A stretch of DNA of 21,744 bases from a virus. The stretch is taken from the IMG/VR virus record IMGVR_UViG_3300031576_001017, positions 1 through 21,744 of that record; one strand, written 5' to 3'. Each line of letters starts with the position of its first letter. Position 1 is the stretch's first letter. Position numbers and translations under genes: made by a program. The notes beneath the pieces are model-generated. The model was not told the DNA's origin and did not search any database. It was given only the letters and a program-made list of their open reading frames with translations. Below are positions 291 through 18,397 of this stretch, piece by piece.

Positions 291-1793
291 ATGATTTCCC
301 CAGCGATCGCCAAACGCATGGAGCTCTGGCCGATCGACCGGCTTGTCCCGTACAGCAAGAATCCGCGCACCCACTCGGACGCGCAGGTCGCCCAGATTGC
401 CGCGAGCATTGTCGAATTCGGCTTTAACGCGCCGCTCCTGGTGGATTCGAAGGCCGGGGTCGTCGCCGGCCACGGCCGCCTGTTGGCGGCGCGGAAGCTG
501 GGCCTGGCCGAAGTCCCAGTGATCGTGCTGGATCACCTGAGCGAGACGCAGAAGCGCGGGTACCTGCTGGCGGATAACCGGCTGGCGGAGCTGGCGAGCT
601 GGGATGAGCAGTTGCTGGTGGCGGAGCTGACCGCGCTGGAGGCCGATGGATTTGATCTGGGGTTAACGGGCTTCAGCGAGGAGGAGCTCGGGCAACTGCT
701 GCGCGAGGAGGAAGACCCGGAAGCTGAGCCCGACGAAGAGATCCCCGATGCGCCCGCTGTTGCAGTCACGCAGCCCGGCGACCTGTGGCTCATCGGACCG
801 CACCGCCTGCTCTGCGGCGATTGCCGCGACGCTGCGGCGGTGGCTCGGCTCTTCGAGGGCGGGAAACCCAACGTGGTCGTTACGTCGCCGCCGTACGCCA
901 CCCAACGCGAATACGACCCGGCCAGCGGCTTCCGTCCAGTGGCGCCCGAAGACTACATCGACTGGTACCGGGCTGTGGCCGAGAACATCGCATCGGTCCT
1001 GCCGGCGGATGGCTCCTACTTCCTGAACATCAAGGAGCACGCCGAGGACGGCCAGCGTCACCTCTACGTCAAGGATCTGACGATCGCCCATGTGCGCCAG
1101 TGGGGCTGGCGTTTCGTCGACGAGTTCTGCTGGCGCAAGACCGACAATGGCGTGCCGGGCGGCTGGGGTAACAGGTTCAAGAACGCGTGGGAGCCAATCT
1201 TCCACTTCTGTCTCAACTGCACCATCAAGTTCCGGCCCGAGGCAGTGAGCCACGCTTCGGAAGATTGCTTCGACTACTCGCCGGACACGCCGAAGTCGAA
1301 CTCGGGTAGCGGGCTGCTGGGTGAGCACGAGGACCGGCACAAGGGAATCGCCCGCCCGAGCAACGTGGTCGAGGCAAAGTCCGAGAGCGATCAAGGATCG
1401 CATTCCGCCCCCTTTCCGCGAGCGATCCCGGAGTTCTTCGTCAAGGCGTTCTCCGACCCGGGCGATGTGGTCTTCGATCCGTTCCTGGGCAGTGGTACGA
1501 CGATGGTCGCGGCGGCCCTGCTGGATCGCAGTGGCTACGGCATAGAGATCAGTCCGAGCTACTGCGACGTGGCGCTGCGGCGCCTCGAGCGTTCAGCGGG
1601 TTTGACGGCCACGCTCGACGGTCGGAGCTTCGATGAAGTGGCTGCTAATCGCGGGGTGCCCGCAGGCGCGCAGCCAGACCTGCGCTCGCGCGACTCGCGA
1701 TCCATCCGAAGGAAACCCAATGGAATGCCCTGTTACGGCCCGAAAAAGCCCAGCGGCGCGCCTGTCTACGTGAAGAGCGGGAGGCGCCGGTGA
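291..1793 (+). CDS. ParB-domain DNA methyltransferase (TSPPY type)
   Basis: This 500-residue protein is a site-specific DNA methyltransferase with a ParB/Srx-like N-terminal domain. Residues 14-130 form the ParB-like part, with PIDRLVPYSKNPRTHS and the box AGHGRLLAA near 59-67. The methylase part follows in the beta-class order: catalytic motif IV TSPPY at 198-202, then the AdoMet-binding motif FDPFLGSGTT at 395-404. TSPPY is common in N4-cytosine enzymes but also occurs in N6-adenine ones, so the target base is open. A basic tail of about 50 residues (450-500) is absent from the next gene. The start at 291 is chosen because both paralogues then have the same length up to the conserved PY (residues 20-21). 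No Shine-Dalgarno site is visible, and a GGTCGTCACC repeat sits in its place. The stop overlaps the next gene by 4 bases. No restriction enzyme lies nearby, so it is probably an orphan enzyme protecting phage DNA or regulating genes. Confidence 0.9.
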   Translation: MISPAIAKRMELWPIDRLVPYSKNPRTHSDAQVAQIAASIVEFGFNAPLLVDSKAGVVAGHGRLLAARKLGLAEVPVIVLDHLSETQKRGYLLADNRLAELASWDEQLLVAELTALEADGFDLGLTGFSEEELGQLLREEEDPEAEPDEEIPDAPAVAVTQPGDLWLIGPHRLLCGDCRDAAAVARLFEGGKPNVVVTSPPYATQREYDPASGFRPVAPEDYIDWYRAVAENIASVLPADGSYFLNIKEHAEDGQRHLYVKDLTIAHVRQWGWRFVDEFCWRKTDNGVPGGWGNRFKNAWEPIFHFCLNCTIKFRPEAVSHASEDCFDYSPDTPKSNSGSGLLGEHEDRHKGIARPSNVVEAKSESDQGSHSAPFPRAIPEFFVKAFSDPGDVVFDPFLGSGTTMVAAALLDRSGYGIEISPSYCDVALRRLERSAGLTATLDGRSFDEVAANRGVPAGAQPDLRSRDSRSIRRKPNGMPCYGPKKPSGAPVYVKSGRRR

Positions 1794-3052
1794 TCGAGAT
1801 CCGAATTCCCGGCCCCCATCGCCTGGTGCCGATCGAGCGGCTGATTCCCTACGCCCGGAACCCTCGCACCCACAGCGAGGAACAGGTGGCCGAGATCGCC
1901 GCTTCGATGGTTGAGTTTGGCTGGACGTCCCCGATCCTGCTGGACCGCAACAACGTCGTCATCGCCGGCCACGCCCGCCTGGCGGCCGCGCGGAAGCTGG
2001 GCCTAGCGGAGGTGCCGGTCATTGTGCTGGACCACCTCAGCGACGCCCAGCGCCGGGCGCTGGTGATCGCCGACAACAAGCTGGCCCTCAACGCGGGCTG
2101 GGACGACGAGATGCTGCGCGTGGAGATGGAGGCGCTCCGCGAGGAAGACTTCAACCTGGAGTTGCTCGGCTTCAGCGATGACGAACTCGAGGCGCTGCTC
2201 GCGGAGTCCGACGAGCCGGCCGCGGGGCTGACCGATGAGGACGAAGCGCCCGAGGCGCCCGAGCAGCCGGTTTCGGTTCGCGGCGATCTGTGGGTGCTGG
2301 GCCGGCATCGCCTGCTGGTGGCCGACGCGACGAACACGGACGAAGTGGCGCGGCTGATGGGCAAGGAGCGCGCCGATCTGGTCTTCACCGACTTGCCCTA
2401 CAACATCGACTATCACGGCCGCACGGCCGAGCGGTTGACGATCGCGAATGACCGGATGTCGGCGCACGAGTTTGTGGCGTTCCTCGAGGCGGCCTTTAGT
2501 GCCTTGCGCTCGGCGATCCGGCCGACGGCGTCGATTTACGTTTGCCACGGCTCGCGCTACCAGCGGGAGTTCCAGAACGCGCTGGAGGCGGCCGGCTTCG
2601 AGGTCCGCTGCCAGATCATCTGGGCCAAGCACACCTTCAGCCTCGGATGGGGCCGCTATCGGTTCCAGCACGAGCCGATCTTCTACTGTCACGTCGCTGG
2701 GGAGGAAGATCCCTGGTATGGGGACCACAGCCAGTCGACGCTTTGGCCGGAGAAGAAGCCGGCGGCCAATCGGCTGCACCCCACCATGAAGCCGGTGGAA
2801 CTGGTGGAGCGGGCGCTAGCGAACAGCAGCCGGCGCGACGACGTGGTCGCGGACTTGTTTGGCGGCTCGGGCTCGACGCTGATCGCGTGCGAGCGCCTGG
2901 GGCGGCAGGCGCGACTAATGGAGATCGACCCGCGCTACGCCGACGTGATTATACGGCGCTGGATGGAGTTCAGTGGTGGCAAGGCAGTGCTCGATGCGGA
3001 TGGACGCAACTTCGAGGAGATCCGAGATGAGCGGCAGCGGGTTGCGGCGTGA
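1790..3052 (+). CDS. ParB-domain DNA methyltransferase (DLPY type)
   Basis: This 420-residue protein starts with GTG inside the stop of the preceding paralogue (GTGA overlap), so the two are probably translationally coupled. Residues 1-135 repeat the ParB/Srx-like domain (PIERLIPYARNPRTHS, AGHARLAAARKLG) and stay close to the first gene even at DNA level; 17 bases at 489-505 recur exactly at 1988-2004. The catalytic half differs. Motif IV reads DLPYNIDY (201-208), HPTMKP lies at 330-335, and the AdoMet-binding motif ADLFGGSGST lies at 354-363. The overall shape fits phage N6-adenine methyltransferases, whose motif IV is normally DPPY; Leu replaces the first Pro here. It most likely marks a different sequence or base from its neighbour. 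No cognate nuclease is seen. Confidence 0.9.
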   Translation: MIEIRIPGPHRLVPIERLIPYARNPRTHSEEQVAEIAASMVEFGWTSPILLDRNNVVIAGHARLAAARKLGLAEVPVIVLDHLSDAQRRALVIADNKLALNAGWDDEMLRVEMEALREEDFNLELLGFSDDELEALLAESDEPAAGLTDEDEAPEAPEQPVSVRGDLWVLGRHRLLVADATNTDEVARLMGKERADLVFTDLPYNIDYHGRTAERLTIANDRMSAHEFVAFLEAAFSALRSAIRPTASIYVCHGSRYQREFQNALEAAGFEVRCQIIWAKHTFSLGWGRYRFQHEPIFYCHVAGEEDPWYGDHSQSTLWPEKKPAANRLHPTMKPVELVERALANSSRRDDVVADLFGGSGSTLIACERLGRQARLMEIDPRYADVIIRRWMEFSGGKAVLDADGRNFEEIRDERQRVAA

Positions 3053-4852: not shown

Positions 4853-6761
4853 GGAGATCTACGCCGCGGCAGCCGCCGCCGGCGCACGGCCCGATCCGCT
4901 GTTGACGATTTCCGAGTGGGCGGACCAGTATCGGATCCTCTCGACGCGCGCCTCGGCCGAGCCGGGCCCTTGGCGAACGAATCGGACGCCGTACCTGAAG
5001 GAGATCATGGATTGCCTCTCGCCGTCTTCGCCCGTCGAGCGAGTGGTGTTCATGAAGGGCGCGCAGGTCGGCGCGACCGAGTGCGGGAACAACTGGATCG
5101 GCTATGTGATTCACCAGGCGCCGGGGCCGATGATGGGCGTGCAGCCCACGGTCGAGATGGCCAAGCGGAACTCGAAGCAGCGCATCGACCCGCTGATCGA
5201 GGAAAGCGCGGTGCTGCGCGAGCTGGTTCGCGATCCGCGGTCACGCGACAGTGGGAACACGGTTCTGGCGAAGGAGTTCCCCGGCGGGGTGCTGGTGATG
5301 ACCGGAGCGAACAGCGCCGTGGGCCTCCGATCGATGGCGGCCCGGTACCTGTTCCTCGATGAAGTGGACGGCTACCCGGGCGATGTCGACGGTGAGGGCG
5401 ATCCGGTCAACCTGGCCCTGGCGCGAACCCGAACGTTCGCGCGGCGCAAAGTCTTTCTCGCCTCGACGCCGAAGATCGCCGGGTTGAGCCGCGTCGAGAA
5501 GGCCTTCGAGGAGAGTGACCAGCGCCGGTACTGGGTTCCGTGCCCCGCCTGCGGCGAGTTTCAAGTTCTCAGATTCGCGCAGGTGACATGGCCGAAGGGC
5601 AAGCCCGAAGTGGCGGTCTATGTTTGCGAGCACTGTGGCGCGCGGATCGAGAACCACCAGAAGCACCAGATGCTCGCGCAGGGTGACTGGCGGCCGAGCG
5701 CAGTCGGTGATGGCCGCACGGCGGGTTTTCATCTGTCGAGCCTGTACAGCCCGGTAGGCTGGTTCAGTTGGGCCGACGCGGCCAAGATGTTCGAGCAGGC
5801 GCAAAAAGATCACGCGCTGCTTCAGGTCTTCGTGAACACCGTGCTGGGCGAGACCTGGACCCAACTGGGCGAGGCGCCCGACTGGCAGCGCCTGTATGAG
5901 CGGCGAGAGGACTACAAGATCGGCACCGTGCCGGCGGGCGGGCTGTTCGTCACGGCTGGCGTGGACGTCCAGCGCGACCGCATCGAGTGTGAGGTGGTCG
6001 CGTGGGGCCGCGGGAAGGAGTCGTGGTCGGTCGAGTATCGGGTCTTCGAGGGAGATACCTCGCGCAGCGAGGTCTGGGAGCAGATCTCGCGACTGCTCAA
6101 TGAAACCTACGAGAGCGACTCCGGCGTGGAACTGCCAATTGTCCGCTTGGCCATCGACTCGGGGTACGCCACGCAGGAGGTCTACAACTGGGCACGAAAG
6201 CAGGCCTCGCCCCGCGTGATGGTCATCAAGGGCGTCGAGCGCGGAGCAGCGCCGGTCGGCCAGGCCACGGCTGTCGATGTTTCGGTGACCGGCAAGCGGA
6301 TGCGGCGCGGCATCCGCGTGTGGCCGGTGTGCACCGGTCTCATCAAAGAAGAGATCTACCGCTGGCTGCGCCTCGAGAAACCGACCGACGAAGGCGGCGA
6401 GCCATTTCCGCCTGGGTACTCGCATTTCCCGAAGTATCCCGAAGAGTTCTTCAAGCAACTCACCGCCGAGCAGCTCGTACCCCGCGTAGTGAAGGGGTAC
6501 CGGCGGGTGGAGTGGCAGAAGATGCGGGAGCGCAATGAAGCTCTCGACTGCCGCGTTTATGCACGTGCGGCCGCGACGGTCTACGGCCTCGACCGGTTCG
6601 CGGAGCGCCACTGGAAGACGCTCGAGGACCAGGTGGGCGCGGCGATCAAGCGCAAGCAGGAACGGCAGGAGATTGGACAGCCGGCCCAGCAGGCGGTGGT
6701 GATCGAGCAGAGACCGGCGTCCGTGCGCCGGATCATCCGTTCGCAGTTCTTGGAGCGCTGA
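4836..6761 (+). CDS. terminase large subunit, lambda GpA family
   Basis: This 641-residue protein is the ATP-driven packaging motor and nuclease. The N-terminal ATPase has a Walker A-like KGAQVGATE (74-82), a Walker B LFLDEVD (172-178) and a coupling-type LASTP (208-212). A cysteine pair set, CPAC (236-239) and CEHC (264-267), suggests a zinc-binding insert. The C-terminal nuclease domain shows the expected acidic residues in GVDVQRDRIE (Asp377), AIDSG (Asp441) and ALDCRVYARAAA (Asp571). The ATG at 4836 is preferred over the TTG four codons upstream. The length matches lambda gpA (641 residues). It overlaps the small terminase, and a gpW-like gene follows at once, as in lambda. Confidence 0.95.
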   Translation: MVQTAEEIYAAAAAAGARPDPLLTISEWADQYRILSTRASAEPGPWRTNRTPYLKEIMDCLSPSSPVERVVFMKGAQVGATECGNNWIGYVIHQAPGPMMGVQPTVEMAKRNSKQRIDPLIEESAVLRELVRDPRSRDSGNTVLAKEFPGGVLVMTGANSAVGLRSMAARYLFLDEVDGYPGDVDGEGDPVNLALARTRTFARRKVFLASTPKIAGLSRVEKAFEESDQRRYWVPCPACGEFQVLRFAQVTWPKGKPEVAVYVCEHCGARIENHQKHQMLAQGDWRPSAVGDGRTAGFHLSSLYSPVGWFSWADAAKMFEQAQKDHALLQVFVNTVLGETWTQLGEAPDWQRLYERREDYKIGTVPAGGLFVTAGVDVQRDRIECEVVAWGRGKESWSVEYRVFEGDTSRSEVWEQISRLLNETYESDSGVELPIVRLAIDSGYATQEVYNWARKQASPRVMVIKGVERGAAPVGQATAVDVSVTGKRMRRGIRVWPVCTGLIKEEIYRWLRLEKPTDEGGEPFPPGYSHFPKYPEEFFKQLTAEQLVPRVVKGYRRVEWQKMRERNEALDCRVYARAAATVYGLDRFAERHWKTLEDQVGAAIKRKQERQEIGQPAQQAVVIEQRPASVRRIIRSQFLER

Positions 6762-10270: not shown

Positions 10271-11275
10271 ATGCTGAATCCATTCTCGTCTGACGCCTTT
10301 GACATGGTGGCGCTCACCGCCGCCATCAACAAGATCCCCAATCTCTATGGCCGCGTCGAACAACTCGGCCTGATGCCCGCAGCAGGGGTACGCACGCGCA
10401 CCATTCTGATTGAGGAGATGAATGGGGTATTGAATCTGCTGCCCACGCAGCCGGTGGGCTCGCCCGGCACCGTGGGCACCATGGGGAAGCGCAAGGTGCG
10501 CTCGTTTGTGATCCCGCACATCCCCCACGATGACACGGTGCTGCCCGAGGAGGTCCAGGGTATCCGGGCCTTTGGCTCGGAGAACGAGATGGAGGCTCTC
10601 GCCAGCCTCATGGCGCAGAAGCTCCAGAACATGCGCAACAAGCATGCGATCACGTTGGAGCACCTGCGCATGGGCGCGCTCAAGGGCGTGATCCTGGATG
10701 CCGACGCCTCGACGCTCTACGACCTCTACAGCGAGTTCGGCATTACAGCCAAGGTGGTGAACTTCGCCCTGACCACCGCCTCGACCGAAGTGCTGACCAA
10801 GTGCCTCGAAGTGAAGCGCCACATCGAGGATAACCTGCGCGGCGAGTTCATGGCGGGGTTCTACTGCCTGTGCTCGCCCGGCTTCTTCGACGCCCTGACC
10901 ACCCATGCCAAGGTCAAAGAGGCGTACGCCCGCTGGCAACAGGGGCAAATCCTGTTCTCCGACAACCGGACGAACTTCAGTTTCGGGGGGATCGTCTTCG
11001 AGGAGTACCGCGGGCAGGCGACCGATCCGGCTGGCAACGTGCGCAAGTTCATCGCGGATGATGAGGCCCACTTCTTCCCGCTAGGCACGGCGACCACGTT
11101 TCGGACCTACTTTGCGCCGGCGGACTTCAACGAGACGGCAAACACGCTGGGGCTGCCGCTCTACGCGAAGCAGGAGCCGCGGAAGTTCGGCCGCGGGACG
11201 GACTTGCACTCGCAAAGCAATCCGTTGCCGGTCTGCCTGCGGCCCGAGGTTCTGGTCAAAGGCACCAAGACGTAG
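10271..11275 (+). CDS. major capsid protein, lambda gpE family
   Basis: This 334-residue protein is the main head shell subunit. It starts MLNPFSSDAFDMVALTAAIN, typical of lambda-E-type capsid proteins, and has IPNLYGRVEQLGLMP, RTRTILIEEMNGVLNLLPT and KVRSFVIPHIPHDDTVLPEE, which belong to the conserved N-terminal half. The long helix region around 110-140 (LASLMAQKLQNMRNKHAITL) fits the HK97-fold spine helix. The C-terminal half contains the usual FRTYFAPADFNETANTLGLP. GAAGGAG lies 10 bases before the ATG. Length is close to lambda gpE (341), and gene order after gpD agrees. Confidence 0.95.
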   Translation: MLNPFSSDAFDMVALTAAINKIPNLYGRVEQLGLMPAAGVRTRTILIEEMNGVLNLLPTQPVGSPGTVGTMGKRKVRSFVIPHIPHDDTVLPEEVQGIRAFGSENEMEALASLMAQKLQNMRNKHAITLEHLRMGALKGVILDADASTLYDLYSEFGITAKVVNFALTTASTEVLTKCLEVKRHIEDNLRGEFMAGFYCLCSPGFFDALTTHAKVKEAYARWQQGQILFSDNRTNFSFGGIVFEEYRGQATDPAGNVRKFIADDEAHFFPLGTATTFRTYFAPADFNETANTLGLPLYAKQEPRKFGRGTDLHSQSNPLPVCLRPEVLVKGTKT

Positions 11276-13266: not shown

Positions 13267-14298
13267 ATGCCCGCCAACATCCGCGAAACCAAGATCGGCT
13301 TCGGCTTCAAGAAGCAGACCGCCCTCCAGACGGCGAATGTGCTGGCCGACATCTGGAGCCTGGCGAAGATGAATGCGGCGCTCTCGACCGTCACCCTGAA
13401 CGTCGAGGACGACGCGGCCGAGCTGGGCAAGGGGCACGAGTTCGCCACCCAGACGTTCAAGTCTCACTGGGACGCGAGCGGCGCGATCGAAAAGTACCTC
13501 ACGAGCGAAATCGCCGCGTGGGCCTTTGTCTTCGGTCTCGGCAACCGGGTCAAGAGCGGCATCACGGCCATCACCTACACCTGCACGCCGCAGGATCCCG
13601 TGACCGGCGGCATCGAACTGCCGGCCTTCTCGTTCATCGAGACCATCCGCCAGGGCGGCAGCGCCGTGCTCGACCGCATGGCCGTGGGCTGCCTGGTCGA
13701 GGACTTCACGATCACGCTCGCCTCGGGACCGGGCCGCTCGAGCTCGAAGATTACGATCAACTTCGCCGGGTGCGGCAAGCTCACCGAGCCAAGCGGGATC
13801 ACCATCCCGGCCGCAACCACCGAGCATCTGCTTCCGGCCGCGAGCGCTCAGGTGACGATCAACGGCGTCAACTACGTCTCCAGCCGCAACCTGGTGTCGC
13901 TCGAGTTCGGACTTAAGAACAACCTGCGCCTGGATGCCGGCTTCTATCCAGGCAGCGGCACTCAGGACAACGCGGCCATTCGCGGGCGCCTCGAGTTCGG
14001 CGACCGCCAGGCCTCGCTCAAATTTGTCGCCCGGTTCGAGAACGGCTCGACCGAACTGACCAAGCTCCGCAACCAGACCACCGGGACGGCGACCATCAGC
14101 CTACAAGGCGAGCTGATCTCGGGCACGGACTACCACTCGATTTCGGTGACCTTCCAGAAGGTCGCCTTCAAGACCGCGATCGTCGGGGACACGGACGGCA
14201 TCGTCACGGTCGAGGTCGAATGCGCGCCGCTCTACGACTCGGTCAACGGCCTGCTCTCGGCCGTGGCCAAGTGCACCCAGGACAACATCGGATCGTAA
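13267..14298 (+). CDS. major tail tube protein
   Basis: This 343-residue protein is the likely tail tube subunit. It is beta-rich with few charged clusters. It begins MPANIRETKIGFGFKKQTAL, and later has WDASGAIEKYLTSEIAAWAF, followed by several strands (SAQVTINGVNYVSSRNLVSL, TTGTATISLQGELISGTDYH) and a C-terminal TIVTVEVEC-type strand. Such a plan is typical of long siphovirus tube proteins, which may carry a C-terminal surface domain. AGGAG lies 8 bases before the ATG. The G/T chaperone gene follows immediately, the order seen in lambda (V-G-T-H). Its expected partner is the tape measure inside the tube. Confidence 0.82.
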   Translation: MPANIRETKIGFGFKKQTALQTANVLADIWSLAKMNAALSTVTLNVEDDAAELGKGHEFATQTFKSHWDASGAIEKYLTSEIAAWAFVFGLGNRVKSGITAITYTCTPQDPVTGGIELPAFSFIETIRQGGSAVLDRMAVGCLVEDFTITLASGPGRSSSKITINFAGCGKLTEPSGITIPAATTEHLLPAASAQVTINGVNYVSSRNLVSLEFGLKNNLRLDAGFYPGSGTQDNAAIRGRLEFGDRQASLKFVARFENGSTELTKLRNQTTGTATISLQGELISGTDYHSISVTFQKVAFKTAIVGDTDGIVTVEVECAPLYDSVNGLLSAVAKCTQDNIGS

Positions 14299-14307
14299 GG
14301 AGCGTCT

Positions 14308-14907
14308 ATGTTTGACACGAAACGCGAAATCGAAATCAGCGTGCTGCATCCGGCGGGGAAAAAGGTCTGCCGGGTGCGCTGGCCATCGGATGAGGAATGG
14401 ATCGAGCACTCCGCCCGCCGGCGGGTGGTGGTGAGCCAGTTGAGCCGGGATGAGTCCGTGACGGAGATCCTGGACGGAGAACGCGCCGCAGGCGAGCTGC
14501 TGGCCAAGATCCGGATCGATAAGGACGGGCCGGATCTCGACGAGTACGAGGCCTCCTATGTCATCGAGCGGCTGTCGCGCGCACAGGTTGACGATTGTGC
14601 GAGAGCCGATGGCGGTGTTGGGGTCACGCTGAAGGTGCCAGGCGTCGTGACCAAGCATGTGCTTCGGGTGCCTTCCCTCGCAGAAGTCGTGAACTACCGC
14701 CGCGGCTTCTCGCGGTTGGTCGAGAACCGCCGCGGCAAGCAACTGCTCAAGATCAACCTCCGGGCCGCAGGGGAATTCTACGACAAGCTGGCGCAGTCAA
14801 AGGAAGGCTACGCGGTTGAGGTCCCCGTTATCCACAAAGCAGCCGTCGTGACCGAGCTGCTTGTGTACTTGGAGGCCGAGCAGGAGGGTGACGCGGGGGA
14901 AGTCTGA
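14308..14907 (+). CDS. tail assembly chaperone G
   Basis: This 199-residue protein should coat the tape measure during tail assembly, like lambda gpG. The beta-rich start (REIEISVLHPAGKKVCRVRW) and helical C-terminal half (EVVNYRRGFSRLVENRRGKQ, EFYDKLAQSKEGYAVEVPVI) fit the role; position between tail tube and tape measure is diagnostic. AAGGAG lies 8 bases before the ATG. The gene ends at TGA 14905-14907, just after a G-rich slippery stretch, and a minority of ribosomes probably read past it in the -1 frame to make the longer fusion product (separate entry). Confidence 0.82.
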   Translation: MFDTKREIEISVLHPAGKKVCRVRWPSDEEWIEHSARRRVVVSQLSRDESVTEILDGERAAGELLAKIRIDKDGPDLDEYEASYVIERLSRAQVDDCARADGGVGVTLKVPGVVTKHVLRVPSLAEVVNYRRGFSRLVENRRGKQLLKINLRAAGEFYDKLAQSKEGYAVEVPVIHKAAVVTELLVYLEAEQEGDAGEV

Positions 14908-15257
14908 ACCCCGGCGAGTGGCCGGAATCGCCCGGGGTGCGCTTCCTGATTTGCTGGTTGCTCCGCCGGGAGGAGCTGTGCGGCGGCCCGAACCTGTGCC
15001 CTTCGGCGCCTGACGATGCGACCCGGTGTGCGGACTGCCCAGCCCTGAGGCTCGAGGAGTCGCTCGATTCGGACGCCGGATGGCTGCTCCAGCGGGCTCT
15101 CGATCTCGATTTCGCCCTCCGCACTGGCCTAACGCTCACGCCCAATGACGTCGCCTTTGATGAATTCATCGCCCTACGCATCCTCCACGAGGAGCGCGAC
15201 CGCCACGCTGCGGAACTGAGCCGACGATGCCCGCCTCGAACACCCTTCAACTCGTAG
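14308..15257 (+). CDS. G-T fusion tail chaperone made by -1 frameshift
   Basis: Reading through the slippery site GGGGGAA (14895-14901) in the -1 frame joins G to the downstream frame and gives a 316-residue product (198 residues of G, then SLNPGEWPESPGVRFLICW and on to TAG 15255-15257). The -1 frame is closed upstream by TGA 14889-14891 and open from 14892, so the shift must occur in a short window that contains the slippery run. A bulged GC hairpin lies 6 bases downstream. Lambda makes gpGT the same way; the T part recruits the tube protein to the G-coated tape measure. The fusion is inferred from sequence. Confidence 0.8.
14895..14938 (+). promoter_or_regulatory. programmed -1 frameshift signal
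   Basis: The G-frame codons GCG GGG GAA GTC TGA contain the heptamer G GGG GAA (14895-14901). Slipping back one base keeps the P-site pairing perfect (GGG to GGG) and changes the A-site codon from GAA to GGA, with a single G-U pair. After a 6-base spacer, ACCCCGG (14908-14914) pairs with CCGGGGT (14932-14938), and CGA (14915-14917) pairs with TCG (14928-14930) around a one-base bulge (C14931); the loop is 10 bases. Spacer length and stem strength are those expected of a stimulatory hairpin. Confidence 0.75.
14901..15257 (+). CDS. T domain of the tail chaperone (frameshift extension)
   Basis: This is the -1 frame part of the fusion, 118 residues. A stand-alone start would be GTG 14937, but it lies in the hairpin and has no ribosome site, so translation only as a fusion is more likely. 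The chain has a helical first part (VRFLICWLLRREE) and a four-cysteine stretch, LCGGPNLCP and RCADCP (Cys 15, 21, 31 and 34 counted from GTG 14937), that could bind zinc or another metal. Two helical segments follow (AGWLLQRALDLDFALRTG, DEFIALRILHEERDRHAAEL). It overlaps the tape measure start by 31 bases. Confidence 0.75.
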   Translation, partial: SLNPGEWPESPGVRFLICWLLRREELCGGPNLCPSAPDDATRCADCPALRLEESLDSDAGWLLQRALDLDFALRTGLTLTPNDVAFDEFIALRILHEERDRHAAELSRRCPPRTPFNS

Positions 15258-18200
15258 TCGAGGTTACAACCGACGCGGCCAACCGCTCGATCGACAAGGT
15301 CAATACGGGCCTTGCCCGCATCGAGCAGGTCGCCGTGCGCTCCTCGCAGGGCGCTTCGCGCGGCATCGACGGCCTGACCGGGAGCATGGCCAAGGGCGTG
15401 GTCGCCGGCAGCGCGCTCGTGGCTGCGATCGAGAAGGCGTTCAGCGTTCTGAAGTCCTTCACCGTCGAGGCGGCGCAGTATGCCGCCCGGACCGAGACGC
15501 TCGGTGTGGCTCTCGACCAGCTCGCCAAGGCGAATAGCCTGAGCGTGGAAGCTGTACGCGCGCAGGTCGAGTCTGTGAAGGCTCTGGGCATCACCACTCA
15601 GGATGCCCGCTCGGCCATCGCCCAGATGATCGCCGCCCAGATCGATCTGTCCAAGGCCACGGAGCTCGCGCGCCTGGCGCAGGACGCGGCGGTGATCGCC
15701 GGCAAGAATTCGTCGGAGACCTTGGCCGGCATCGTTCACGGGATCGTCACCCAGCAGATCGAGGTCCTGCGCACCTACGGCATTCAGGTCAACTTCGAGC
15801 GGGCGTTTGCGCGGGCCCAACAGGAGGTCGGGCGGGAGCTGACCGAGACTGAGCGCAAGATGGTCGCCTTCACTGAGGTGCTCCGGCAGGCGCCGAAGTT
15901 TGCCGGGGCTTACGAAGCTGCCCTGGGCACCGTCGGCAAGCAGCAGACCTCCCTCACCCGCTACGTGCTCGAGGCCAAGAACACCATCGGCGAGCAGTTC
16001 CTACCTTTGATGCGGCAGGCCGTCGCTGGCCTGACGGAGCTTGCCAAGTGGGCGAAGGAGAACGCGACCGACATCGCCAACCTGACTAAGGCCACCGCTG
16101 GCCTGGCCATCGTCATCACGGCCTACAACGTTCCGGGATTGCTTCTGAAGATCGCCGCCGGCATCCGGGCGATCTCGCTTGCAGCCGCCGCCAACCCCTG
16201 GGGCCTTGTCGCCGCCGGGGTCGCAACCCTCGGCTTTGCCCTGTACGAGATGAAGCAGCGGCTGGATGAGAGCGCCGAGGCCATGGAGCAGGCGGCGCAG
16301 CGGGCGAAGCTGCTGGAGGAAATCAGGGCAGGCCGTTCCGTCGAGGAACTCCAGAAGCTCGGCTACACGGCCGACCAGATCCGGCAGGCGCTTACAGGCG
16401 CGAAAACCGCACTCACCGATCTGGCCGGGGGCGTCCAGGGCTTCGACTTCGGGGCGCCGATCCGTGCGCGTATCGAAGACGAACGCAAGCTCCAAGAGGA
16501 GCTCCAGCGCCAGCGGGAACTGCGCACCAAGATCAAACAGGCGGAAGAAAAGGCGCACGATCTGTTGATCTCGGCCCAGAAGCAGGAGTTCACAGGCTTG
16601 GCGAAGATCATCGCCGAGTACGGCATCTATCGCCAGGAGATCGGTCTCTCGGCAAAAGCCAACCGCGATCTGGCGCTAGCCACCCAATTGCGGCTGCGCG
16701 TCGAGGCGTCCAAGGAACTAAAGGAGAGTGCTCGTGAGCAACTGAAACAGCTCGAGGAGCAGACGGCGGCCGACCTTGAGGCGCGTGGCCAGCGGATGCT
16801 CCGCGAGAAGGAGTTCCAGTCGGAGACCCTGGAACTGGCCATCGACACGCTCAACAAGCGCCTCGACTACGAGCAGACGGCACTGGAGCAAGCCCGCGAC
16901 GCTCGGCTGCGAGCGCTCGAGTTTGTGGACGCCCGCACGGTCGAGCAAAAGATTGCGATCGAACAGCAGAAGCTCGCGATCGAGGAGGATTACCTGCTCC
17001 GTTCGTTCGCCCTCAAAGCAGCAGCGCTCGACCGCGAGGCCCAGGCGGAGGTGGTGATGATGGAGGCCATCGCCCGGGCGCGGTTCATCAGCGAGGAGGA
17101 AATCGCCCGGCGGCGCGACGAGCTGCTCCGAGCCTTCGCCGAGAAGGCACGCCAGCTCGAGGTCTCGACCCAGGACAGCATCAACGCCGCCCGCGAGAAC
17201 GCTGCCATCCGCCAGACGCAGATTGTCAGGGACGCCAATCAGCGCATCTTCGACCAGATGAAGTCGGCGAGCGAGCGGGTCTTCGACGCGATGCTGCAGA
17301 AAGGACAGAGCATCTTCTCGGCACTGGCCGATGCGCTCAAGAACGCCGTGCTGACGGTACTGCGGGAGATCGTCACCTCGCAAGTCGCCCGGATGCTGAC
17401 GGCGTTGTTCACGGGCCAGCGCGTGGCTCTGGCGCCGGGCGGGGCCGGCGGTGGCACCCTGGGCCGACTTGGCGGGTTGCTCGGCATCGGGGCCGTGCCG
17501 GTGTTCGGCGCAGGGAGCATCACCGGCGGGCCTGGCGGTACCGGAGGCTTCGCCGGGCCGGTGACCACCGGCTCTCCGGCGAGCTCGCTGCTCGGCTTCG
17601 CCGGCCTCGGAGTGAACCTGAAGAGCTTCCTCGGATTCGGTGGCGGCTCAGTGGCCCTGGGCGCCGGACGTGCGACAACTACGGCCACTCTGGGCGGCAA
17701 GTTCGCCGCGCTCGGCCGTTCCGATGCCGCCGCTCTTGCTGGCGGCCTGCTGGCTTTCGAAGGCCTCCGCCGGGGCGGATTGAGCGGGCTCGCCATGACC
17801 ACCGCCGGCGGCGCCCTGCTCGGCTTCAAGTTTGGCGGCCCGATTGGAGCCGCCATCGGCGCCGGGGTCGGTGCCATCGCCGGCATCGTTCGCTTGTTCA
17901 TCAAGAACGCCGCACAGAAGGCTCGCGAGAAGATCCGCGCGGTCTACGGCGTGGACATCCAGTCGAAGGGCGTGTTGGACCAGATCGTACAGATGGCCAA
18001 GCAGGGCTTCGGCGGCAACCTCGACATCGCGATCCGCAGTCCCCAAGTCCGCGATCTGATCGAACTCTACGCGCTCTCGACTGGGCAGAGCATCGGCGGA
18101 CTACCCGCCACGGTGAGACCGGTTTCGCTCGTCCAGCAAGGCGGCGCGTTGTATCAACCTGGCCTGGGCAGCAGTTCGCTCGACCGCATCGGCGCAGGAG

Positions 18201-18397
18201 TCCCACAAAACGCTGGGCCGATCGTGATCAAGCTCGACGGCCCCGCGACGACCGCCCTGTTGCGCGGCGAAGCCGTCCAGGCTATCGCCGACAACCCACG
18301 ACTGGTCCAGAGCGCGGCGATGACCGCTACGCGGGCCAACGCCGGCCGCCGCGAACTGCTGGCTCTGCAACTTTCTCCTGGAACCCTGACCGCATGA
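15227..18397 (+). CDS. tape measure protein
   Basis: At 1056 residues this is the longest gene and the ruler of the tail; at about 0.15 nm per residue it predicts a tail near 160 nm (inference). The N-terminus (about 1-280) is helical (TDAANRSIDKVNTGLARIEQ). A hydrophobic stretch at about 288-343 (GLAIVITAYNVPGLLLKIAA, NPWGLVAAGVATLGFALYEM) is the usual membrane-active segment. Residues about 415-690 are Glu/Lys/Arg-rich coiled coil. Residues about 735-870 are a Gly/Ala-rich low-complexity region, and PIGAAIGAGVGAIAGIVRLF (about 871-890) is a second hydrophobic helix. The C-terminal 160 residues are a mixed domain. The start overlaps the T extension and the stop overlaps the next gene (ATGA). 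Confidence 0.92.
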   Translation: MPASNTLQLVVEVTTDAANRSIDKVNTGLARIEQVAVRSSQGASRGIDGLTGSMAKGVVAGSALVAAIEKAFSVLKSFTVEAAQYAARTETLGVALDQLAKANSLSVEAVRAQVESVKALGITTQDARSAIAQMIAAQIDLSKATELARLAQDAAVIAGKNSSETLAGIVHGIVTQQIEVLRTYGIQVNFERAFARAQQEVGRELTETERKMVAFTEVLRQAPKFAGAYEAALGTVGKQQTSLTRYVLEAKNTIGEQFLPLMRQAVAGLTELAKWAKENATDIANLTKATAGLAIVITAYNVPGLLLKIAAGIRAISLAAAANPWGLVAAGVATLGFALYEMKQRLDESAEAMEQAAQRAKLLEEIRAGRSVEELQKLGYTADQIRQALTGAKTALTDLAGGVQGFDFGAPIRARIEDERKLQEELQRQRELRTKIKQAEEKAHDLLISAQKQEFTGLAKIIAEYGIYRQEIGLSAKANRDLALATQLRLRVEASKELKESAREQLKQLEEQTAADLEARGQRMLREKEFQSETLELAIDTLNKRLDYEQTALEQARDARLRALEFVDARTVEQKIAIEQQKLAIEEDYLLRSFALKAAALDREAQAEVVMMEAIARARFISEEEIARRRDELLRAFAEKARQLEVSTQDSINAARENAAIRQTQIVRDANQRIFDQMKSASERVFDAMLQKGQSIFSALADALKNAVLTVLREIVTSQVARMLTALFTGQRVALAPGGAGGGTLGRLGGLLGIGAVPVFGAGSITGGPGGTGGFAGPVTTGSPASSLLGFAGLGVNLKSFLGFGGGSVALGAGRATTTATLGGKFAALGRSDAAALAGGLLAFEGLRRGGLSGLAMTTAGGALLGFKFGGPIGAAIGAGVGAIAGIVRLFIKNAAQKAREKIRAVYGVDIQSKGVLDQIVQMAKQGFGGNLDIAIRSPQVRDLIELYALSTGQSIGGLPATVRPVSLVQQGGALYQPGLGSSSLDRIGAGVPQNAGPIVIKLDGPATTALLRGEAVQAIADNPRLVQSAAMTATRANAGRRELLALQLSPGTLTA

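Follow-up and report, generated by a model that had tools for sequence, protein, structure and literature searches.

The window, by which we mean the whole 21,744-nucleotide stretch of viral DNA analysed here (IMG/VR record IMGVR_UViG_3300031576_001017), carries on its forward strand two overlapping frames, G and T. Gene G (14308–14907) is preceded by the Shine-Dalgarno (SD) sequence TAAGGAG and encodes a putative tail assembly chaperone of 199 aa, which would be common to a short product and a longer fusion. The 3′ end of the gene reads, codon by codon, GAC GCG GGG GAA GTC TGA. The slip heptamer G_GGG_GAA (14895–14901), with P-site codon GGG and A-site codon GAA, is separated by the single codon GTC from the TGA stop (14905–14907) that ends gene G in the unshifted frame. 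The T frame (14892–15257), in −1 phase relative to G, is blocked on its 5′ side by a TGA at 14889–14891, opens at 14892 and closes with a stop at 15255–15257. The preliminary description of this DNA had reported both the heptamer just before the G stop and a −1 frame open from just before the slip to 15257, and both were borne out. A −1 shift can join the two frames only in the last 13 bases 5′ of the G stop, and GGGGGAA falls inside this interval. With a background of ~1 in-frame slip heptamer per 560 codons in the window's genes, the chance of such a heptamer in a 13-base interval is ~0.5%. The copy at 14895–14901 is the only GGGGGAA in the 21.7-kb window, both strands included.

Directly 5′ of G, the gene at 13267–14298 has a PHROG minor-tail match (E 1e-12). 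On the 3′ side, a gene of 1056 aa (15227–18397, forward strand) shares its first 31 bases with T and has a weak PHROG tape-measure match (E 0.0016). Taken together, these two matches give the gene order of lambda-like tails. A long ORF also starts beside T in most relatives whose contig extends that far. In the close relative L002, a ~26-base tandem repeat at 4877–4932 (TTGAGGAACGCGACCGCCATGCAGC, present twice) alters the C terminus of T, and the overlap between T and the tape measure gene is consequently lost.

T has no start of its own

IMG/VR searches with G and T yielded 39 distinct viral G-T loci, the window included. T starts at the end of G and is in −1 phase to it in all 39, and none of them carries the two genes in a single frame. 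A further candidate, L018, from cellular genomes, was discarded as a false positive, being an unrelated large ORF that shares the peptide RWPSDED.

The first start codon of the T frame in the window is a GTG at 14937–14939 on the forward strand, and we examined whether T could be a separate gene translated from it, once G has been read, through reinitiation or translational coupling. The GTG lies 32 bases 3′ of the G stop and opens an ORF of 106 aa, and translational coupling works without a strong SD. However, no SD precedes this GTG in the window, and its first bases are the last ones in the 3′ arm of a predicted hairpin; the preliminary description had likewise noted that the only candidate start for T sits in the stem and has no ribosome site. 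In addition, the conserved PGEWPESPG of T (GxWPExP in the family) lies upstream of the GTG. Nor do the relatives have a start in the corresponding position. In 37 of the 39 loci the first ATG, GTG or TTG near the junction in the T frame falls 26–107 bases 3′ of the G stop, often within the conserved domain, and in the other two, L012 and L035, the T-frame TTG belongs to the slip run itself. In the alignment the invariant W-P of T, followed by P and R, is found from 11–17 bases 3′ of the G stop onwards, and in the same 37 loci no T-frame start near the junction precedes this W-P. A conserved ribosome site for T, which the preliminary description had named as a finding that would speak against frameshifting, is present in none of the 39 loci. 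In all relatives the homology of T begins at the slip. We therefore regard a separate T gene as very unlikely and the GTG as unused.

The substitution pattern points in the same direction. Between the window and L005, differences at codon positions 1, 2 and 3 number 16, 6 and 42 in T, and 23, 14 and 79 in G. The G frame read beyond its stop shows mostly amino-acid changes in the same comparison, as expected of a non-coding frame. This pattern indicates that T is under purifying selection and evolves as a protein. Since T homology reaches back exactly to the slip, 5′ of the starts in 37 of 39 loci, and T is under purifying selection, T is best explained as the C-terminal part of a G-T fusion. 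For annotation, T should be joined to G and not called from GTG 14937. That a sequencing error or gene decay has instead split an originally uninterrupted G-T gene, leaving T as its detached end, is extremely improbable: single-base differences can split genes, but the same −1 split occurs at 39 distinct loci with differing junction sequences, and T is under purifying selection.

Slip sequences across the family

A run able to slip −1 is found within 0–9 bases of the G stop in all 39 loci, and its sequence changes from one group to another. GGGGGAA is the slip sequence of three loci only, the window, L002 and L005, and more distant relatives have other slip sequences in its place. In 32 loci U_UUU lies directly 5′ of the G stop, and 18 of these have the classical A_AAU_UUU. 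The codon 5′ of AAU varies (ACA, GAA, GCA, GGA, TCA), but its last base is always A, which the heptamer requires. Single loci have A_AAU_UUC (L030) and U_UUU_UUC (L011). L015 and L060 have no U_UUU by the stop; instead, C_CCA_AAC is found one codon earlier, and the −1 frame is open from exactly that heptamer. By type, 24 loci have a strict X_XXY_YYZ, 3 have GGGGGAA and 12 have U_UUU only. A slip sequence that changes while its place and direction stay the same has, on this comparison, the look of a function that is kept while its site changes.

The junction sequences also bear on slippage of the RNA polymerase, which at the G run, or at the U run in relatives, would give some frame-shifted mRNAs. 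Homopolymer runs of five occur at most G-T junctions, although runs of ~5 are short for polymerase slippage. Transcriptional slippage is known in bacteria (PMC5009743). Against it, L015 and L060 have, in the matching position, CCCAAAC with no run above three, and the phase of the heptamers relative to the codons suits slippage by tRNAs. This explanation is thus highly improbable.

The preliminary description had looked to conservation of the slip site and the stem in relatives, and had taken a non-conserved slip site as evidence against frameshifting. Position and direction are kept in all relatives, whereas the heptamer varies outside the window's clade. To count such variation against frameshifting proves too strict, since the sequence differs and the place and direction are the same.

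In these 32 loci no base separates the slip codon UUU from the G stop (e.g. L010:4588–4597), which is usually UAG or UAA and rarely UGA. Because the stop codon adjoins the slip codon in most members, competition with the release factor could tune the ratio of G to G-T.

RNA elements around the slip site

Downstream of the heptamer, RNA folding predicts a hairpin at 14908–14938 (forward strand), which begins 6 bases 3′ of GGGGGAA. Seven pairs (14908–14914 with 14932–14938) and three pairs (14915–14917 with 14928–14930) are separated by a bulged C at 14931. Folding 14895–14945 thus reproduced the stem of 7 plus 3 pairs, the bulge and the 6-base spacer of the preliminary description. The stability of this hairpin in the window is not above chance when compared with shuffles (z −0.11 for 14895–14945; z −0.15 for the 50 bases from the stop). 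A tendency to fold is seen in the family: the 50 bases 3′ of the G stop have a mean z of −1.21 against shuffles, versus −0.08 elsewhere, with related loci treated as independent. When the encoded peptide is held fixed, the mean z is −0.47 versus +0.69 at control places, again with related loci treated as independent. The effect is smaller at fixed peptide, so the conserved GGxWPExPSP peptide accounts for much of the stem. In the window itself, 7% of synonymous versions fold as well as the native hairpin. The weight that the preliminary description gave to the stem was overstated, as the tendency is seen in the family but goes only weakly beyond the peptide constraint.

The 43-base stretch from the heptamer to the stem is invariant at 41 positions among the window, L002 and L005, and only 7 of 880 such stretches in G-T are equally conserved. 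The covariation score of the stem is 0.153, compared with 0.084 in shuffles, and none of 500 shuffles reaches it. One clear synonymous wobble pair of Gly and Pro codons contributes to the stem (GGC with CCG, GGG with CCT or CCC); it represents only two independent changes on the tree, so that the covariation is not significant. RNAalifold returned no consensus structure for the 39-row alignment. The window's group and the other relatives share the position of the hairpin but differ in its pairing register, and thus their hairpins are not column-by-column compensations. A role of the hairpin as a frameshift stimulator is plausible, though weakly supported.

Upstream of the heptamer, an SD-like AGGAGG (14882–14887, forward strand) lies 7 bases 5′ of the slip site, an element absent from the preliminary description. 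In dnaX the internal SD is spaced ~10 bases from the slip site, and the spacing of 7 here counts against a stimulatory role. AGGAGG is kept in L002 and L005, and nearly all more distant relatives have no such sequence at that spacing. An internal SD as a family-wide trait was accordingly rejected, because AGGAGG is confined to the window's clade. Together, AGGAGG and the hairpin probably raise the slip rate, as putative stimulators on either side of the heptamer.

Proposed mechanism

The locus has the arrangement of the G/GT type, with overlapping frames between tail and tape measure genes, a conserved −1 phase and an in-phase slip site. The preliminary description had proposed a −1 frameshift that joins G and T 5′ of the tape measure gene, and the −1 arrangement recurs at every one of the 39 loci. 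From these sequence comparisons, we consider it very likely that the tail assembly chaperone genes of this uncultivated tailed phage, represented solely by metagenomic sequence, undergo programmed −1 ribosomal frameshifting. The majority of ribosomes would read G to its TGA and release the 199-aa chaperone. In a minority, the P-site tRNA-Gly, paired with GGG, and the A-site tRNA-Glu, paired with GAA, would move back one base and re-pair with GGG and GGA. The slipped ribosomes would then decode the T frame from AGT at 14901, reading AGT CTG AAC and onwards past the G stop, and produce a G-T fusion of 316 aa, with its end at 15254. On the lambda model, the tape measure protein encoded by the next gene would be coated by many G and few G-T molecules, and T would recruit the tail tube protein. 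We infer the slip itself, its rate and the chaperone function, the last from the position of the genes, their arrangement and a weak fold hint.

Comparison with known systems

Long-tailed phages, though little alike in sequence, widely share a low-level −1 frameshift from G to T (PMC5009743). In lambda, the G/GT site (G_GGA_AAG) also lies between tail protein and tape measure genes; like the window, it has a −1 shift near the end of G, a fusion that shares the N terminus of G and the tape measure gene next to it (PMC5009743). Unlike lambda, the window uses another heptamer, has a possible SD and a possible hairpin, and encodes proteins without detectable relation to those of lambda. P2 E/E+E′ (T_TTT_TTG) and Mu gp41 likewise have a frameshifted tail chaperone pair before the tape measure gene (PMC3091744 for P2; the Mu record for gp41). 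P2 and Mu differ in having contractile tails, and the Mu shift is −2 instead of −1. P2-like slip sites have no stem (PMC3091744).

The heptamer of the window is already known from other phages. The 'fivetwo' motif of PRFect consists of GGGGGAA alone and is given for about a thousand SEA-PHAGES sites (PMC10885494), and re-pairing of tRNA-Glu on GGA through a G·U pair has already been discussed (PMC10885494; PMC10274946). In the tail assembly chaperones of actinobacteriophages with the 'fivetwo' GGGGGAA, the heptamer and its phase are identical to those of the window (PMC10885494). In the PRFect training set the mean distance from slip site to stop is 26 bases, compared with 3 in the window, and the proteins are unrelated by search. 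Another parallel is corynephage phi16 gp14A, for which an internal SD (GAGG), GGGGGAA and a pseudoknot were proposed in tail assembly genes (PMC5506516). The two loci are alike in their internal SD, their GGGGGAA, their downstream RNA structure and their position in tail assembly genes (PMC5506516); the predicted structure in phi16 is an H-type pseudoknot and that of the window a simple hairpin, and the phages and proteins are different. The slip sequence is thus not distinctive, contrary to what the preliminary description had suggested (PMC10885494; PMC5506516).

The tail-chaperone −1 frameshift is itself well known in phages, and the site of the window leaves knowledge of the mechanism unchanged. 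What is modestly new is a G/T family without a match in Pfam, PHROG or annotated phages, whose slip sequence changes among members at a constant position and in a constant direction; the stop codon right after the slip codon in most members is mildly unusual. Tentatively, these loci may represent a new tail chaperone family whose slip site has been repeatedly replaced, mainly among G_GGG_GAA, A_AAU_UUU with an immediate stop, and C_CCA_AAC, with the direction, the fusion point and a hairpin-forming segment retained. The lambda-type G/GT frameshift is thereby extended to proteins unmatched in Pfam, PHROG, NCBIfam and annotated phages. In addition, the set of 39 loci allows one homologous frameshift to be traced through changes of its slip sequence, which helps to ask what such sites conserve.

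Protein families and genome context

Searches of G and T against Pfam, PHROG and NCBIfam gave no credible match, and tblastn against annotated phage records gave none. Comparison of G with Mu gp41 by hhalign gave a probability of 0.1%. The predicted models have a pLDDT of 90 for G and 87 for T. In a search of viral-protein folds, the weak matches of the G model included a tape measure chaperone (E 0.36) and, at E 0.04, the tail assembly protein FS-gp41 of Mu. Its best global fold match was the unnamed protein A0A6M2VCE7 (TM 0.54), and nothing above noise was found in the PDB. For the T domain the fold search gave no match (PDB Z below 3, viral E above 1). T homologues share four invariant cysteines, which in the window (14904–15254) are spaced C-x5-C and then C-x2-C. 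Four members of T match the EndIII 4Fe-2S motif marginally (best E 0.003), and the T domain may bind zinc or an Fe-S cluster.

Annotated phages gave no match for the tail gene at 13267–14298, for G or for T, unlike the capsid gene. The nearest annotated relatives of the major capsid protein (Phage_cap_E, 10271–11275) are those of Wolbachia phage WO, at ~70% identity. Judged from these matches, the head and tail of this phage are a mosaic. Located 5′ of the packaging genes, two adjacent and overlapping genes (291–1793 and 1790–3052) each match ParB-N plus an N6/N4 DNA methyltransferase, forming a tandem pair of ParB-methyltransferase fusions.
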